Source of the DNA: Nitrospira sp. KM1
Lineage (GTDB): Bacteria > Nitrospirota > Nitrospiria > Nitrospirales > Nitrospiraceae
Assembly (NCBI RefSeq): GCF_011405515.1
Contig: NZ_AP022671.1
Coordinates: forward strand, 1,240,001 to 1,304,000
Length of the DNA: 64,000 bases
Direction: 5' to 3'
Position numbers and translations under genes: made by a program. The notes below the pieces were generated by a model. It had not been told where the DNA came from, did no database searches, and worked only from the letters and a program-made list of their open reading frames with translations. This document shows positions 18,954-27,918 of the stretch, piece after piece. Position 1 is the first letter of the stretch. Each line of letters starts with the position of its first letter.

Positions 18954-20555
18954 TCAATGACCGAGCTTGTTGCGCAGGGCCGCGCCGATGAAACCGCTGA
19001 ACAACGGATGCGGATGATGGGGGCGAGAGCTATATTCGGGATGGAATTGCGTGGCCAGGAACCATGGATGATCTTTCAATTCGACGATTTCGACCAGCTG
19101 ACCATCCGGCGAGACCCCGCTCAGGACCAGTCCTTTGGCGCTCAACACATCACGGTAGGCATTGTTGAATTCGAACCGGTGGCGATGCCGCTCGCGGACT
19201 TCCCCCACGCCGTACATTTTCTGCGCCAACGTGCCGTCGCCGAGATTGCAGAGATACGCGCCCAACCGCATGGTCCCGCCCTTCCCACTCACGGAATGCT
19301 GCGCATGCATCAGATGAATCACAGGATGGGCCGTCCGCTCGTCGAATTCCGCGCTGTTGGCTCCGGTCAGCCCCGCCACGTTGCGCGCAAACTCGATGGT
19401 CGCGCATTGCATGCCGAGACACAGGCCGAGAAACGGGATCTTGCGTTCACGCGCGTACCGGATGGTGGTGATTTTCCCTTCGATGCCGCGTGATCCGAAT
19501 CCTCCGGGGATGAGAATGCCGTCGGCCTCCCGAAGAATTCGTTCCGTTCCCAGGCGCTCAACGTCCTCGGATTCGATCCAGTTGATATTCACTTTGGTTT
19601 CATGGTCGATGCCGCCATGGATCAGCGCCTCTGCCAGACTCTTGTAACACTCTTTCAGTCCGGCATACTTTCCGACCAATGCGACTGAAATTTCGTGTTT
19701 CGGATGCTTGATCTTCTGGACCATGGCATCCCACTCGCGGAGATTCGGAGGACCGGTCTCCAGTTTCAACTGTTTGACGATGAGCTCGTCCAGTCCCTCC
19801 TTGCGGAAAACAATCGGCACTTCGTAGATCGTTTCCACATCCTTGGCGGTGATGACCGCGTCCTTTTCGACATTGCAGAACATCGCGATCTTCGCCTTCA
19901 ATTCAGGCGGAAGATAACGGTCGGTGCGGCATAATAAAATATTCGGCTGGATACCGATCTCCCTCAGCTTGTTCACCGAATGCTGGGTCGGCTTGGTTTT
20001 CAGTTCACCGGCGGCCCCGATATAAGGCACGAGCGTCAGGTGCACATACAGGACGTTTTCACGGCCGACGTCATAGGGCATCTGCCGGATGGCTTCCAGA
20101 AACGGCAGGCTCTCGATGTCTCCAACCGTCCCCCCGATCTCGACGATCGTGACATCCATGCCCCTGGCGAGCCGCACGATGCACTGTTTGATTTCATCCG
20201 TCACGTGGGGAACCACCTGCACCGTCCCGCCCAGGTAGTCGCCTCGGCGCTCTTTGGTGATGACGGAATTATAAATACGGCCGGTCGTGTAATTATTCTC
20301 CTGGGTCAGCGTCAATGACGTATAGCGTTCGTAATGACCCAGATCGAGATCGGTCTCGGCTCCGTCGTCCGTGACATAGACTTCTCCGTGCTGGTAGGGA
20401 TTCATCGTCCCGGGATCGACGTTGATATACGGATCGAGCTTTAAAAACGTGATCTTGAGTCCACGGCTCTCCAACAGATTTCCGATCGAGGCGGACGCCA
20501 GCCCTTTCCCCAGCGAGGACACCACGCCGCCGGTGACGAATATGAATTTACTCAT
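18954..20555 (-). CDS. pyrG: CTP synthase
   Basis: The 533-residue enzyme aminates UTP to CTP using glutamine. The N-terminal synthase domain starts [20 protein letters not shown]. The C-terminal glutaminase domain has the nucleophile in [11 protein letters not shown] and the His/Glu pair in [10 protein letters not shown]. Its place directly before kdsA and after kdsB makes sense because KdsB consumes CTP to activate KDO and PgsA uses CDP-lipid. It is part of the long lepA-plsY operon, not of the pyr operon further right. Confidence 0.98.
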
Positions 20556-20604: not shown

Positions 20605-21405
20605 TCATCGGCCGGCTGGTCCTCGCGTCAAGTTGAGTTCGCGCTTCAGAACTTCGAACTTCTGAAGTTTGTCAGCCACCTCCGGAACATCCTCAGGCGT
20701 GTCGACCCGAAGCGACGCATGTTTCGTTTCCCACACTCTGATGCGCATCCCGTTCTCCAGTGCCCGGAGTTGTTCCAGTTTTTCCGCATCTTCCAATGTG
20801 CTGGTCGGCCACTCGGCAAAACGCAGCAAGGCCTTTCTGGTGTACATGTACAGCCCGAGGTGGACATGATGAAGTCCGCCCACGACACGTCCGTCGGCGT
20901 CATCGCGGACCATCGGAACCGGGGCGCGTGAAAAATACAGGGCGTAGCCCTGCGCATCGGTGACCACCTTGACGATGGCGGGGTTCTGCAGATCATCCGT
21001 GGTGTCCATAGCCCGTTTCAACGTGCCCATCTCCACATTGGCCCGGAGAAACGGATCGATCAAATCGGTCAACAGATCCGGATCAAGTGGAATTTCATCC
21101 CCTTGAAGATCCACGAAATATTCTCCGGCATACATGGTGGCGACCGCCGCAACCCGGTCCGTTCCGGTCCGGTAGTCACCTTTCACCATGACGACGCGCC
21201 CGCCGAATTGTTCAATGGCCTGTTTGATGCGGTCGTCATCGGTGGCTACGAGCACGTTGGTGACGGCACGACAGGCGACGGCTTGTTCATAGACGTGCTG
21301 GATCATGGGCTTGCGCCCCAGACGCGCCAACGGTTTTCCCGGAAAGCGTGATGATCCGTAGCGGGCGGGAATCACTACCGTGACCTGCCGCTCCGTCTTA
21401 CTCAC
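20605..21405 (-). CDS. kdsB: 3-deoxy-manno-octulosonate cytidylyltransferase
   Basis: KdsB makes CMP-KDO. The 266-residue protein has the nucleotide-binding start VVIPARYGSSRFPGKPLA and the family motif NVQGDE seen here as VDLQGDEIPLD. The length is slightly above the usual 245-255, with a charged C-terminal extension. It overlaps the upstream heptose kinase gene by 8 nt and lies 49 bp before pyrG. Confidence 0.96.
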   Translation of the reverse strand: MSKTERQVTVVIPARYGSSRFPGKPLARLGRKPMIQHVYEQAVACRAVTNVLVATDDDRIKQAIEQFGGRVVMVKGDYRTGTDRVAAVATMYAGEYFVDLQGDEIPLDPDLLTDLIDPFLRANVEMGTLKRAMDTTDDLQNPAIVKVVTDAQGYALYFSRAPVPMVRDDADGRVVGGLHHVHLGLYMYTRKALLRFAEWPTSTLEDAEKLEQLRALENGMRIRVWETKHASLRVDTPEDVPEVADKLQKFEVLKRELNLTRGPAGR

Positions 21406-22432
21406 GGTCCAACGCCTCCATCAGTTGCTTGGCCGTCACGGTCGCAGTTCCCACCTGCCCCACGACGATCCCGGCTGCCTGGTTCGCCAATGTCGCCGAT
21501 TCCCGCATGGACGCGCCCGTCGCGAGCGCCAACGCCATCGTCCCGACGACCGTATCGCCCGCGCCGGTCACATCGAACACCTGGCGTGCCCGCGTGGGAA
21601 TATGCCAGGAGACACCCTCCCCTTCGAACAGGCTCATCCCTTTCTCACCTCGCGTGATGAGCACGGTTTGACAACCAAGCCGCTGGCGGATTGTCGCCCC
21701 GGCCTCTTGAACGGTCTGATCGCTATCACCGTGAAGTCCGGCCGCCTGTGTCGCTTCGAGATGATTCGGTGTGATGACAGTCACGCCTTTGTAATAACTG
21801 AAATGTTCGACTTTGGGATCGACAATGACGGGCACGCGTCGAAGCGCCGCGAGCCGAGTCAATTCGGACATCAATGCGGCGGTGATGACACCCTTGGCAT
21901 AGTCCGATACGACGACACACGAGAGCTCGCGGAGGCGGGATTCGACATACCGCAGCATGCGTTTTTGCAGCAGAGGTTTGGGTTCACCGCGCCGCTCGAC
22001 GTCGTAGCGGACGACCTGCTGGTTGTGAGCAATCACCCTCGACTTCCTGGTCGTGGGCCGGTCGTGGTCGATGACGACGCCGCCGCGACCGGAACGCCGC
22101 GGTCCCAGCTCTTTGAGCAAACGCCGGCCGCTTTCGTCCGCCCCGATGATTCCGCACAGATCGGCCTTGCCGCCGAGCGCCAACACATTATTGAAGACAT
22201 TGGCCGCTCCACCCAGTCTCATGGATTCCGAATCCACGTGAACGACCGGCACCGGAGCTTCGGGGGAAATCCGACTGACGCGGCCCCAGATGTAATGGTC
22301 CAAGATGAGGTCTCCGATGACCAAGACGGAGGCCTGCGGAAAGCGCTGAATGTACTGGCGCAACGCCGTGCTCGAGAGCATGCCGCTCTGCGGAGACGAT
22401 CCGGCATCGGACTTGGCATTTCGTCTGGTCAT
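21398..22432 (-). CDS. hldA: D-glycero-beta-D-manno-heptose-7-phosphate kinase (HldE kinase domain / RfaE1)
   Basis: The 344-residue protein is a PfkB-family sugar kinase. It has the heptose-kinase motif VLVIGDLILDHYIWG, the GGAANVFNNVLALG substrate loop and the anion-hole/catalytic DVTGAGDTVVGTMALA. Only the kinase half of the bifunctional HldE is present; the adenylyltransferase half is absent and not seen elsewhere in the window, as in organisms with split hldA/hldC. It supplies ADP-heptose for the inner core. It overlaps lepB by 4 nt (ATGA) and kdsB by 8 nt. Confidence 0.92.
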   Translation of the reverse strand: MTRRNAKSDAGSSPQSGMLSSTALRQYIQRFPQASVLVIGDLILDHYIWGRVSRISPEAPVPVVHVDSESMRLGGAANVFNNVLALGGKADLCGIIGADESGRRLLKELGPRRSGRGGVVIDHDRPTTRKSRVIAHNQQVVRYDVERRGEPKPLLQKRMLRYVESRLRELSCVVVSDYAKGVITAALMSELTRLAALRRVPVIVDPKVEHFSYYKGVTVITPNHLEATQAAGLHGDSDQTVQEAGATIRQRLGCQTVLITRGEKGMSLFEGEGVSWHIPTRARQVFDVTGAGDTVVGTMALALATGASMRESATLANQAAGIVVGQVGTATVTAKQLMEALDRE

Positions 22433-23205
22433 TGGATGGCCTTACCCAACCGATCCCAGCGAACCCATTCCGTCCACTGTCCCTGCCCGCTCCATGACCA
22501 ATAGATACGAAACGCCTTGCCGCGGATCTTTTCACCCCTTACGTAACCCCAAAACCGGCTGTCCAGGCTCTGGTCGCGGTTATCCCCCATGACGAAATAT
22601 GAATCGTCCGGTACCGTCACCGGACCGAAGTTATCCCGCGGATTGATGGTCCCGTCGATGATCCCGGGATCGATCCGCTGCGTGAACGTCTTGTCATCGA
22701 GGGGGGCGCCATTGACGAGCACGACTTTGTTCTTTATTTGCACGGTGTCGCCGGGAGTGCCGACGATGCGTTTAATGAAGTCCTTCTCCTCATCCTCCGG
22801 AAAGCGGAACACAATGATGTCTCCCCGCTGCGGTTTGCCGAATTCGATGATGCCGTGAGAGGCGTAGCAATTCACCGGGGGAAATCCCCATTGGAATTTG
22901 CACTCGCTCGGCCACTGGAGACCGTACGAGAGCTTGCTGACGAGAATATGGTCTCCAATCAACAAGGTCGGGATCATCGAACCCGAGGGAATCTTGAACG
23001 CCTGAACCACGAACACCCGAATGGCGAATGCCAGCAACATGGCCACGACGATGGCCTCGGCATACTCACGGAGAACCGATTTTCTGGCCGGCTGGACGGA
23101 GACCGGAGGTTCGGAAATCGAGGATGCGCCAACGGACTCGGCTGCGGCTTCGGGGACCTGAGGCCTCACATCATCGCCGCCGGGCCTATTCAGATCCCCG
23201 CTCAT
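22429..23205 (-). CDS. lepB: Signal peptidase I
   Basis: The 258-residue membrane protease has a cytoplasmic N-terminal tail rich in Pro/Glu and one membrane anchor (about 53-73). The catalytic serine is in [20 protein letters not shown], the lysine in [14 protein letters not shown], and the [14 protein letters not shown] box is present. It cleaves signal peptides of exported proteins. It overlaps lepA by 4 nt on one side and the heptose kinase by 4 nt on the other. The lepA-lepB pairing is common in bacteria. Confidence 0.97.
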
Positions 23206-25001
23206 TCGTCACCGACTTTCAGAATGGCCAAGAATGCTTCCTGAGGCACTTCCACGCTGCCGACGGCTTTCATGCGCTTCTTTCCTTCTTTTTGCTTTTC
23301 CAACAACTTTCGCTTCCGTGTGATATCTCCGCCGTAGCATTTCGCCGTCACGTTCTTTTTCATCGCCCCGATCGTCTCGCGCGCAATCACTTTGTTGCCG
23401 ATCGCCGCCTGAATGGCGATTTCGAACATCTGCCGTGGGATGAGCTCTTTCATTTTTTCCGCGAGCTGCCGGCCGCGAGGATAGGAGCGGTCGCGATGCG
23501 TAATGAAGGAAAGCGCATCGACGGCCTCTCCGTTAAGGAGAATATCCAGCTTGACCAGATCCGATTCCCGATAGCCCAGGAGTTCATAATCCAAGGACGC
23601 GTATCCCTGTGTACGGGATTTCAGCTTATCGTAGAAATCCAGGATGACTTCGTTCAGCGGCAACTCATAGCTGATCATTACCCGGGTGGGATCGAGAAAA
23701 TGGATGCTTCGCTGAATGCCCCGGCGCTCCTGGCACAACTGTAAAATTGCCCCCATGTAGCGCTCAGGCGTAATGACGGTGGCAAGAATGAACGGCTCTT
23801 CGAATTTTGCAATGCTGCCCGGCGGCGGCAATTCGGCCGGATTGTCGATTTCGAGCACTTCGTCTTTCGTCGTCGTGATGTGGTAGACGACCGTCGGCGC
23901 CGTCGTAATCAGTGTAAGGCCGTATTCGCGCTCCAGCCGCTCCTGAATGATTTCCATGTGGAGCAGACCGAGAAACCCGCAGCGGAATCCGAATCCTAAC
24001 GCCAGAGAAGTCTCGGGTTCGTAGACGAAAGACGAATCATTCAAGCGTAATTTGACCAGCGCGTCACGGAGGTCTTCATACTTGGACGTATCGGTCGAAT
24101 ACAGTCCGCAGAAGACCAACGGATTGACTTCTTTATAACCGGGAAACGGCTCGGACGTCGGTTGAATCGCATCGGTCAATGTGTCGCCGATTTTAACGTC
24201 GGCCACCTCTTTCATGTTGGCGCACAGATAACCCACCTCGCCGGTCAGCAGCTCGTTTCTCTTCGTTCGCTTGGGCGTGAACTGCCCCACTTCCATGACT
24301 TCGAACGTCCGGTTGTTCGACATGACCTTGATTTTCATGCCGGGCCGGACCGCGCCGTCTACGATTCTCGTCAACACGATGACGCCTTGGTAATTGTCGA
24401 ACCAGGAATCGAAGATGAGCGCCTTGAGCGGAGCCGTCGGATCGCCGGAGGGAGGAGGGATGCGCTCGATAATCGTTTCAAGGACCTCCGGAACGCCGCG
24501 GCCCTCTTTCGCGCTGATGGGGAGGGCCTCACTCGCCTCAAGCATGAGCACATCGGAGATGGAATGCTTCGTATTCTCCACATCTGCGCTTGCCAGATCG
24601 ATCTTGTTGATGACCGGAATGATGGTCAGCTTGTTGGCCATCGCTAAATTGACATTTGCGATGGTTTGAGCCTGCACTCCCTGTGTGGCATCAACGAGCA
24701 GCAACGCCCCCTCGCAGGCTGCAAGACTTCTCGACACTTCGTAGGTAAAGTCTACGTGGCCGGGAGTGTCGATGAGATGCAAGGCATAAGTCTTCCCGTC
24801 CCCGGCACGATATTTGATCGCGACCGCGTGCGCCTTGATGGTGATGCCACGCTCGCGCTCCAGATCCATCGCATCGAGGATCTGCTCCTTGGCTTCACGA
24901 GCGGTAACAGCGCCAGTAGCTTCGAGGAACCGGTCAGCGAGGGTCGATTTGCCGTGGTCGATATGGGCGATAATCGAAAAATTACGTATCAGGCTTTGCA
25001 A
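23202..25001 (-). CDS. lepA: Elongation factor 4 (LepA)
   Basis: The 599-residue GTPase matches LepA in length and order. The G1 loop [13 protein letters not shown] is at the start, followed by the switch region [19 protein letters not shown], and NKIDLASAD for guanine recognition. The C-terminal EF4-specific domain ends in a Lys/Arg-rich tail. It acts on stalled or mis-translocated ribosomes. It is the first gene of the envelope operon, about 25 nt from the start site of a perfect consensus promoter. Confidence 0.98.
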
Positions 25002-25032: not shown

Positions 25033-25061
25033 ATTATAGTAAGTGCCCTCCAGGTTGTCAA
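25033..25061 (-). promoter_or_regulatory. Consensus sigma-70 promoter of the lepA operon
   Basis: On the minus strand TTGACA (25061-25056), a 17-bp spacer and TATAAT (25038-25033) match the ideal promoter exactly. Transcription should start near 25026, leaving a leader of about 25 nt to lepA. The -35 box overlaps that of the bioA promoter on the other strand. Confidence 0.85.
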
Positions 25062-25084
25062 AGAATCCACCCGCCTCGTATAAT
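25055..25084 (+). promoter_or_regulatory. Sigma-70 promoter of bioA, overlapping the lepA promoter
   Basis: TTGTCA (25055-25060), an 18-bp spacer and TATAAT (25079-25084) read toward bioA. The start site would be near 25091, with a leader of about 65 nt. The -35 hexamer shares five bases with the divergent lepA -35 box, so two polymerases could not bind at once. Confidence 0.7.
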
Positions 25085-25157: not shown

Positions 25158-26543
25158 ATGACTCCCCGCCGCGATAAGAAGCTGCTGGCCGATTGGGATC
25201 GCCGGTTCATCTGGCATCCGTTCACGCAGATGCAGGAATGGGAACGGGAAGAACCCTTGATCGTCGGACGAGGCAAGGGGCCCTATCTGTTCGATCTCGA
25301 TGGAAGACGCTATCTCGACGGCACCTCGTCGATCTGGGTCAATCTTCACGGCCACGGTCATGCCGCACTCGACAGGGCGATCAAGAAACAACTCGGCGCG
25401 ATTGCGCATTCAACCCTCCTGGGCCAATCCAGTCCTCCGGCCATTCGATTGGCTCGCGAGCTCATCCGCATCGCGCCGAAGGGACTTGCGCGCGTGTTCT
25501 ATTCTGATAACGGATCGACCGCCATCGAAGTGGCATTGAAGATGGCGATCCAGTATTGGCAGCAGCGTCCGTCTCCACTTCCGTCAAAGCGGCGCTTTCT
25601 CCATCTTAAGCTCGCCTACCATGGAGATACGGTCGGAGCCGTGAGCGTCGGGAATATCGAGTTGTTTCATTCCCGCTTTCACTCCTTGACCTTTCCGACC
25701 GTCGAAGCGGACCCTCCCTATTGCTACCGCTGCCCGTTGAAGCTCCGTTTTCCGTCTTGCGAGATGGCCTGCCTGGATCCCATCGAAACAATTCTCAAAC
25801 ACCGGCATTTAGAACTTGCAGGATTTGTCATCGAACCGCTGGTTCAGGCTGCCGCCGGCATGATCACCTCGCCTCCCGGATATTTGCGGCGCATCCGCGA
25901 ACTCTGCGACCGATACAAGGTGCTGCTGATCGCGGACGAAGTCGCGACAGGTTTCGGCCGCACAGGCAGAATGTTCGCTTGCGACCACGAGCGTGTCACC
26001 CCGGATCTCATGGCGATCAGCAAAGGGTTGACGGGCGGCTACATGCCGCTCGCTGCGACCCTGACGACGGAAGAAGTTTACAATGCGTTCCTCGGCCGGT
26101 ATGAGGAGTTCAAAACCTTCTTTCATGGACACAGTTACACCGGAAATGCCCTGGGGTGTGCCGTCGCGTTGGCAAATATCGAGGTCTTTCGGAAAGAAAA
26201 GACGCTTGCCCGCCTCCAGCCTAAAGTCAAGTCGCTGACACGTTTGCTGCGCTCGCTGCAGACCCTTCCCCACATCGGGGACATACGGCAACGGGGTTTC
26301 ATGGCAGGAATTGAGTTGGTTCAGAATCGTGACAGTCGTCTGGCTTACCCACTGGAGGCTCGTATAGGGCACCTTGTCGCTCAAGAGGCCAGAAAGCAGG
26401 GTCTCCTGCTTCGTCCCTTAGGGCATGTCTTAGTGCTCATCCCACCATTGTCCACAAGCTTGCGGGAGCTCAAAGAGATGGTGCACATCCTTCGCGGATC
26501 AATCGAGACCGTGACTGGAAAAACCGTCCCCATGCGTCGGTAG
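25158..26543 (+). CDS. bioA: Adenosylmethionine-8-amino-7-oxononanoate aminotransferase
   Basis: The 461-residue PLP enzyme makes 7,8-diaminopelargonate in biotin synthesis. Family motifs are WHPFTQMQEW at the N-terminus, FYSDNGSTAIEVALKMA, LIADEVATGFGRTGRMFAC and the PLP lysine in AISKGLTGGYMPLAATLT. No other bio gene is in the window, so it stands alone. It is divergent from lepA with an overlapping promoter. BioA normally uses SAM as amino donor and some homologues use lysine; the sequence does not settle which. Confidence 0.93.
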   Translation: MTPRRDKKLLADWDRRFIWHPFTQMQEWEREEPLIVGRGKGPYLFDLDGRRYLDGTSSIWVNLHGHGHAALDRAIKKQLGAIAHSTLLGQSSPPAIRLARELIRIAPKGLARVFYSDNGSTAIEVALKMAIQYWQQRPSPLPSKRRFLHLKLAYHGDTVGAVSVGNIELFHSRFHSLTFPTVEADPPYCYRCPLKLRFPSCEMACLDPIETILKHRHLELAGFVIEPLVQAAAGMITSPPGYLRRIRELCDRYKVLLIADEVATGFGRTGRMFACDHERVTPDLMAISKGLTGGYMPLAATLTTEEVYNAFLGRYEEFKTFFHGHSYTGNALGCAVALANIEVFRKEKTLARLQPKVKSLTRLLRSLQTLPHIGDIRQRGFMAGIELVQNRDSRLAYPLEARIGHLVAQEARKQGLLLRPLGHVLVLIPPLSTSLRELKEMVHILRGSIETVTGKTVPMRR

Positions 26544-26685: not shown

Positions 26686-27918
26686 ATGTCACTCCTTCCA
26701 ATATTCGGCCTAGCGCTCCTCCTAGCCCTCCCTACCCCTGTTGCCAGGGCCAATGACGTACAGGCATCGGAATCCGTGTCGCAGCGTTGGAATGCCCTGT
26801 TTTCCGACCAGGAAAGCGGATCGCTTCCCGGATACAGGACTGGAAGTGCCCCGATTTACCAGACCAGCCTAGCTCCCACGTTTTTCGTCCCACCTGTCAC
26901 GTCCCCGCGCCTGCGCGACCTTGCTCCCGAAACGGACCAGGCACGGACCAGGGGCACGTTGAGTTCATCGAGCTGGTTCAAGGGAAATCTGGTGACTGAG
27001 ACGGAAGTCGCGAACAATCAGGGCGGCGCCGGTTGGTTACAAAGCAAAATCCCTGGGGACACCAGGACCGACGCCTCTGAACGAATGATGCGCATGGGAT
27101 TCACCGGTACAAGCGGCGCCCTGCGCTATGGAATGCACTACCGGTCGGCCGGGCAGGCGTTTTTGAACGGGCCCGATCTTGCCACCCGCGAGATGTGGGG
27201 AGAGTGGAAAACCGGTTGGACGACGTTTCGCAGTTCGGTTGGGCAACTGTGGAACAACGTGGCCGGCGATTCTTCTCGCTCACGTCTGGAACAGACTTAT
27301 GGCCGAGTCGGTCTCATATGGAACCGTCCGGCCTGGCCGAATCTCTCCCTCACCTACTCGAAAAACTCGTTGAACAGCGCCATGGACCCCGCAGGCATCG
27401 CGCCGCAGCGCATGATGAGCCACACCTTGGAAGCCGCCCTGGCTTATCAGAGCGCGTCTTGGGACGCGCTCTTGGCCTCGAGCTACAATCTCGGCAACGA
27501 CTTGATGCGCAACGGCGCAGACAGCACCGTGAAGGTGCAGATGATGACGGCATCGTTTCGCCCGCTCAATACACTCACGATTGCTCCGACCTTCACCTAC
27601 CGGGCTGAAATCCAGGACTGGTCCGGTGTCCGGATCAATTCTCCCATCGCCTCCCTAGCCCTGCACTACATGCAAAGCTACAATGTCCGGATCAGCGCCA
27701 TGGGCAACTACATCGGTACCCGTTCAAGCGACGGGCTTATCGATACGGAAAATGTCGGAGGAAGGGGAACTCTCGCGTGGAACATGCAGCGGTCCAACCA
27801 TTGGGCGACGCTCGTCTCCATTGAAGCGGGATACAACCGGCTCAGCAACCGCGTCATGCCCGCGGATGAAACCGAAGACATTTCCGGCCTCATACGCTTC
27901 GTCGTTGCCGCTCTCTAA
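26686..27918 (+). CDS. Predicted outer membrane beta-barrel-like protein, unknown function
   Basis: The 410-residue product starts with a signal peptide (MSLLPIFGLALLLALPTPVARA). The rest has alternating amphipathic strands rich in Trp/Tyr and Ser, with many short xxSxxYxxN patterns (LSLTYSKNSLNSAM, ALLASSYNLGNDL, TIAPTFTYRAEIQ). It ends in strands resembling a barrel closure (GLIRFVVAAL). No known porin family is recognised. It lies 142 bp after bioA; the gap is AT-rich and probably holds its own promoter. No strong ribosome site precedes the ATG. Downstream is a long inverted repeat. Confidence 0.7.
   Translation: MSLLPIFGLALLLALPTPVARANDVQASESVSQRWNALFSDQESGSLPGYRTGSAPIYQTSLAPTFFVPPVTSPRLRDLAPETDQARTRGTLSSSSWFKGNLVTETEVANNQGGAGWLQSKIPGDTRTDASERMMRMGFTGTSGALRYGMHYRSAGQAFLNGPDLATREMWGEWKTGWTTFRSSVGQLWNNVAGDSSRSRLEQTYGRVGLIWNRPAWPNLSLTYSKNSLNSAMDPAGIAPQRMMSHTLEAALAYQSASWDALLASSYNLGNDLMRNGADSTVKVQMMTASFRPLNTLTIAPTFTYRAEIQDWSGVRINSPIASLALHYMQSYNVRISAMGNYIGTRSSDGLIDTENVGGRGTLAWNMQRSNHWATLVSIEAGYNRLSNRVMPADETEDISGLIRFVVAAL

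Follow-up and report, generated by a model that had tools for sequence, protein, structure and literature searches.

Can two unrelated genes rely on a single −35 element, and if they do, does transcription of one come at the expense of the other? This question is raised by the gap between lepA and bioA in the window (the whole 64-kb stretch of Nitrospira sp. KM1 DNA that was analysed), where two divergent promoters appear to use the same bases on opposite strands.

Layout of the lepA/bioA intergenic region

The plus strand of the gap reads ATTATA-N16-TTGTCAA-N17-TATAAT, as established by direct reading of the sequence and by a promoter scan of the window. The promoter elements and the genes on either side are as follows.

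18954..20555, minus strand: pyrG (CTP synthase), a possible later member of the operon
20605..21405, minus strand: kdsB
21398..22432, minus strand: heptose-7-phosphate kinase (rfaE domain I)
22429..23205, minus strand: lepB, signal peptidase I, overlapping the end of lepA
23202..25001, minus strand: lepA (elongation factor 4; TIGR01393), first gene of the minus-strand operon, with a TTG start according to the ORF tool
25026, minus strand: predicted lepA start site, about 7 nt beyond the −10 (from spacing)
25033..25038, minus strand: lepA −10, TATAAT, spacer 17 (sequence, scan, conservation)
25055..25060, plus strand: bioA −35, TTGTCA (sequence, scan)
25055..25061, no strand assigned: −35 near-palindrome TTGTCAA (reverse complement TTGACAA), common to both promoters (sequence, scan)
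25056..25061, minus strand: lepA −35, TTGACA (sequence, scan)
25079..25084, plus strand: bioA −10, TATAAT, spacer 18 in the window (sequence, scan, conservation)
25091, plus strand: predicted bioA start site (from spacing)
25158..26543, plus strand: bioA (adenosylmethionine-8-amino-7-oxononanoate transaminase; TIGR00508)

When scored on the presumption that Nitrospira has an E. coli-like sigma factor and promoter preference, the lepA promoter (TTGACA-N17-TATAAT, minus strand) carries 12 of 12 consensus bases and the bioA promoter (TTGTCA-N18-TATAAT, plus strand) carries 11 of 12. The two −35 hexamers share one 7-bp near-palindrome, shifted by a single base relative to each other. The central base of this element (25058) sets which strand has the full TTGACA, and in the window this is the lepA strand. 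The earlier note on this DNA had described an exact consensus promoter for lepA and an opposite-strand promoter for bioA with −35 regions displaced by one base; the sequence reading and the scan agree on all of these points, including the coordinates. The locus has opposite-strand promoters with overlapping core elements, as do overlapping divergent sigma70-type promoters. The start sites predicted from spacing lie about 65 bp apart, and our literature search found no papers on Nitrospira transcription start sites.

On the minus strand, lepA leads a series of overlapping or closely spaced genes: lepB, the rfaE-type kinase gene, kdsB and pyrG. The TTG start codon assigned to lepA (24999-25001) has the sequence AGGA just 2-3 nt upstream, and the real start codon may differ.

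Chance occurrence of the double promoter

Exact matches to TTGACA-N16-18-TATAAT are found at seven sites in the 4.51-Mb, single-contig genome, compared with none for a reversed-pattern control. For the exact double pattern there is one occurrence in the genome (control, 0), against 4.5e-5 per genome predicted from base composition. No second equal double promoter is present in this genome at three or fewer mismatches with 16/16 spacing, a narrow search in that the window's own 16/17 site falls outside it. The genome has two further consensus promoters with TTGACAA (at 1600484 and 2663587); neither matches the double pattern, and both are one-directional by that test. A chance match is ruled out by the single-genome counts, the expectation, the reversed controls, and the conservation in the family and order.

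Conservation within the family

The earlier note had named conservation in relatives as a check. This comparison was run, and it bears out the arrangement: the shared −35 is present in 125 of the 130 family genomes that are readable at the site, and it is also seen across the order. These family counts come from related genomes and are not independent events. In 116 of the 125 genomes the double promoter is exact, eight carry TATACT (L149-L156), and one has a TGGTCAA variant (L160) that weakens both −35s together. The remaining five readable genomes are uncoupled or one-sided. An exact double promoter is present, as a single copy, in 118 of all 147 family genomes (reversed-pattern control, 0 in all); 116 of these copies are at lepA/bioA and two elsewhere. 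The 17 genomes that are unreadable at the site comprise six in which it is cut or partial and 11 (including G010, G040, G056 and G064) in which neither gene has a match. The joint absence of lepA and bioA from these 11 suggests that the region was left unbinned rather than that the genes were lost.

For a finer comparison, 110 bioA loci were fetched (80 plus 30), and lepA lies divergently within 310 bp of bioA in 103 of these. The 103 loci were kept and yield 85 distinct intergenic sequences. Those dropped were L004, L009, L070, L091 and L096 (no lepA in the stretch), L049 (lacking the lepA N-terminus) and L056 (lepA 2.6 kb away). The TTGTCAA element is kept in all 85 sequences, and its central base never flips, so that the full consensus is always on the lepA side. 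In 84 of the 85, both promoters are present at the identical one-base (−1) offset, with L017, which has lost the bioA −10, as the exception. The lepA −10 is TATAAT in 81 sequences and TAGAAT in four, and the bioA −10 is TATAAT in 77, TATACT in seven, and lost in one. The bioA spacer measures 17 in 70 of 84 sequences and 18 in the other 14. The aligned distance between the gene starts ranges from 100 to 309 bp, with the variation falling chiefly in the bioA leader.

Parsimony on the bioA protein tree of the 85 sequences counts no changes in the seven −35 columns, one in the six columns of the lepA −10, and seven in the six columns of the bioA −10, where L017 contributes one per column. Spacer columns average 10.1-10.2 changes each (Mann-Whitney p 1.2e-8). 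One spacer base was deleted from the rows with 18-bp spacers to align the −10s, a treatment that favours the −10 columns and leaves the −35 columns unaffected.

The two bases after TTGTCAA, A and G, are also near invariant, with zero and two changes, respectively. An unchanging short near-palindrome flanked in this manner might be the binding site of a regulator and not a promoter element. We regard this as very improbable, because each of the two −10 hexamers is maintained at the distance expected of a promoter. Moreover, in sister families the lepA half of the arrangement alone is retained, and where the −35 has been duplicated (G015 and G029) or split (G136), promoter spacing is held for each half.

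Distribution in the order and class

Outside the family, 21 of 33 members of the order carry the double pattern, compared with none of 20 further members of the class. Upstream regions were fetched for 25 of the 33 order genomes, one of which (G247) does not have bioA beside lepA. Of the 24 that do, 23 carry TTGTCAA, and 15 of these 23 have an opposite −10 matching at 5-6 of 6 positions. In the others this −10 is weak; it reads only TAGGTT in five genomes of family f2 (genera g27 and g30), and it matches at 2 of 6 positions in G420 and at 0 of 6 in G328. Judging from sequence, the bioA side is weaker or replaced where its −10 is this poor.

Among the 20 class members outside the order, lepA is found in 19 and bioA in 19. 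The lepA upstream regions were fetched for 15 of these 19 genomes, and none of them showed bioA in the vicinity of lepA. TTGTCAA is present in 12 of the 15, always with a lepA TATAAT at N17, and the opposite −10 matches at no more than 4 of 6 positions in any of these 12 regions. The counts of 15 and 12 exclude the order genome G247 and become 16 and 13 when it is included. In G247 (L193), the opposite TATAAT is retained, bioA is on another contig, and a GC-rich repeat-like stretch occupies its place, which we read as a probable recent move of bioA.

Because the sister families that lack an adjacent bioA keep the lepA consensus promoter without the opposite −10, the lepA promoter is probably the older of the two, and bioA probably borrowed its −35. 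The persistence of the lepA −35 even where bioA does not lie beside it means that conservation of this element is no proof of sharing.

Natural uncouplings

Natural controls for the arrangement exist in the form of half-promoters in the sister families, and of duplications and splits. Two genomes, G015 (L159) and G029 (L148), carry two copies of TTGTCAA 11 bp apart, in the form TTGTCAAAGAGTTGTCAA. A 17-bp spacer separates the lepA −10 from the first copy and the other −10 from the second; the G015 contig stops short of bioA. In G136 (L158), a 2.4-kb insert (approximately 170-2580) separates lepA from bioA, and TTGTCAA is found on either side of it. The promoter on the lepA side is intact, and the idle leftover bioA −10 beside it has decayed to TATAAC. 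The bioA side retains TTGTCAA...TATAAT and has no lepA −10. The remaining two cases are G139, which has lost the bioA −10, and G003, in which an insertion accompanies a degenerate −35.

Three of the five lineages (G015, G029 and G136) therefore have a separate −35 for each side. Sharing of the −35 is not obligatory, since all five lineages are uncoupled or have lost the bioA −10 and yet are viable. Conservation together with these natural uncouplings indicates that both promoters are very probably real and serve lepA and bioA. The insert in G136 carries a 147-aa ORF, which we take to be PIN/VapC-looking.

A model for the shared promoter

We consider it likely that the site is one bidirectional housekeeping-sigma promoter with a lepA-first history and a constitutive output subject to at most mild competition. 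Sigma region 4 would bind the near-palindromic TTGTCAA either way round, with a −10 available at 16-17 bp on each side. RNA polymerase would then face lepA or bioA and never both at once; the earlier note's statement that the shared −35 admits a single polymerase at a time is sound on steric grounds, given the geometry. Owing to the central A:T pair, lepA would have the complete TTGACA and bioA a 5/6 match, TTGTCA, which presumably makes lepA the stronger side.

With regard to history, the lepA promoter, a consensus TTGACAA...TATAAT, would predate the order. In the order's ancestor, bioA would subsequently have come to lie next to it in divergent orientation, and could have gained a promoter by acquiring just a TATAAT at a distance of 17 bp from the −35 already there. 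The arrangement might then have been locked in, as a mutation in the shared −35 would hurt both genes and separating them would require a second −35. As a consequence, both genes would be expressed constitutively at a ratio fixed by the core sequence, without a biotin-responsive switch.

Relation to known systems

In E. coli, bioA is paired with bioB at the bioA/bioBFCD operator-promoter, which is repressed by BirA. The Nitrospira bioA is probably likewise served by a bidirectional promoter. However, its partner is lepA, bioB is situated elsewhere in the genome, and the BirA protein lacks a DNA-binding domain. The only TIGR00121 match in the genome is a 277-aa BirA consisting of the ligase domain alone, rather than the protein with an N-terminal DNA-binding domain that a BirA-regulated bio promoter calls for. 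A BirA switch was rejected for this reason, and the same observation, together with the distant location of bioB, makes a biotin signal at the lepA/bioA site unlikely. A riboswitch or other RNA element was also rejected, as the only nearby Rfam match is to AsrC antisense RNA, scores 27.9 bits against a gathering score of 111, and lies inside lepA. We take this match as a resemblance of lepA-coding sequence and not as an RNA.

The bidirectional promoters described by Warman, Grainger and colleagues, as presented in PMC12825309, also use a pseudo-symmetrical core element for two divergent transcripts, with polymerase able to bind in a single orientation at any moment and with competition that depends on strength. 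Those promoters share the −10 and have start sites 10-23 bp apart, whereas the lepA/bioA site shares the −35, has separate −10s at 25033-25038 and 25079-25084, and has start sites that by prediction lie well outside that range. Overlapping divergent promoters at which polymerase excludes polymerase are also described for Pc/Pr of pLS20 (PMC4207663). That account concerns a strong/weak pair under the regulator RcoLS20, with one −10 proposed to lie on the other promoter's −35. In contrast, the lepA/bioA pair consists of two near-consensus promoters with a common −35 and no known regulator.

What is novel here is that overlapping divergent promoters share the −35 instead of the −10, in a layout kept across an order. 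A search of open-licence papers, in which the term '-35' is not directly searchable, found no conserved shared −35 among published promoters. The locus is a deeply conserved and sequence-simple case of two unrelated genes relying on one −35. It opens the questions of how a new promoter can form by taking over half of an adjacent one, and of whether competition between polymerases for a common element is ever used to set an expression ratio.

Competition between the two directions

The earlier note had gone further, and proposed that strong transcription of the lepA operon should suppress that of bioA, and the reverse. The most direct data come from five E. coli bidirectional promoters, one of which is bioA/bioB, for which strong competition is described only once one direction is made strong (Warman et al. 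2026, PMC12825309). In that account, 'up' changes in the −35 strongly cut the other direction, which favours the proposal, but the same five promoters are described as showing no competition at basal activity, which does not. A toy model of occupancy, run with made-up rates, gives the remaining bioA output as (1+kb*tb)/(1+kb*tb+kl*tl); a drop of about 2-fold or more requires the lepA promoter to be filled for roughly half the time or longer. Consensus promoters could reach such occupancy, and near-consensus promoters may stay occupied long enough for competition. The proposal also draws on the retention of the layout in nearly all readable family genomes despite the variable length of the bioA leader. 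Nevertheless, we consider it distinctly unlikely: there is no regulator site or signal known at lepA/bioA, BirA lacks a DNA-binding domain, five lineages are uncoupled or lack the bioA −10, and about 2-fold suppression requires the occupancy noted above.

At the other extreme, the sharing might be purely historical, with occupancy too low for any measurable effect on expression, which amounts to a null version of the preferred model. The lepA promoter stands without bioA in the sister families (12 of 15 regions read), so that simple borrowing is possible; the natural uncouplings are tolerated; and the basal E. coli data point the same way (PMC12825309). On the other hand, both promoters are near consensus, so that occupancy might be expected to exceed that of the tested E. 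coli promoters, and both −10s and the spacing are kept in most genomes. We give this reading somewhat less than an even chance.

A more ambitious reading is that TTGWCAA is a selected direction-choosing device. A single polymerase site would serve two near-consensus half-promoters, its central base pair would pick the gene that receives the full consensus, mutual exclusion would fix the ratio of translation/envelope to biotin gene expression and damp noise throughout the order, and the device would have evolved separately at lysS/rpmF-plsX. We find this doubtful. Supercoiling between divergent promoters, as described for ilvY/ilvC (PMC4469952), could by analogy help rather than hinder the co-expression of lepA and bioA.

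Occurrence elsewhere in the phylum

Another family of the phylum, f29, includes five genomes (L220 at 1467-1518, L221, L226, L227 and L228) that carry ATTATA...TTGACAA...TATAAT beside yceD-rpmF-plsX; the name yceD is tentative, and that protein matched no NCBIfam model. On the opposite side, lysS is present in four of the five genomes and was not found in L228. This site differs from lepA/bioA in its genes, in having the consensus side towards the rpmF operon, and in its AT-rich intergenic sequence, such that chance is less excluded. As judged from these sequences, the shared −35 layout probably arose more than once. Other members of the phylum also match the double pattern. In that comparison, ordinary promoters reading in one direction already contain half of the pattern, which makes the reversed-pattern control a poor one.

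The two exact double promoters found elsewhere in the Nitrospira family belong to one genus (G008 and G027; L161 at 1087-1140, and L162). They are located between a pgsA-like gene, whose model score of 106.6 is just below the cut-off of 109.1, and a 139-aa ORF without a family. In the window itself, a 410-aa ORF located 3′ of bioA (26686-27918) has no NCBIfam match, and its sole Pfam match (E 0.027) is below the curated cut-off and is read as chance.
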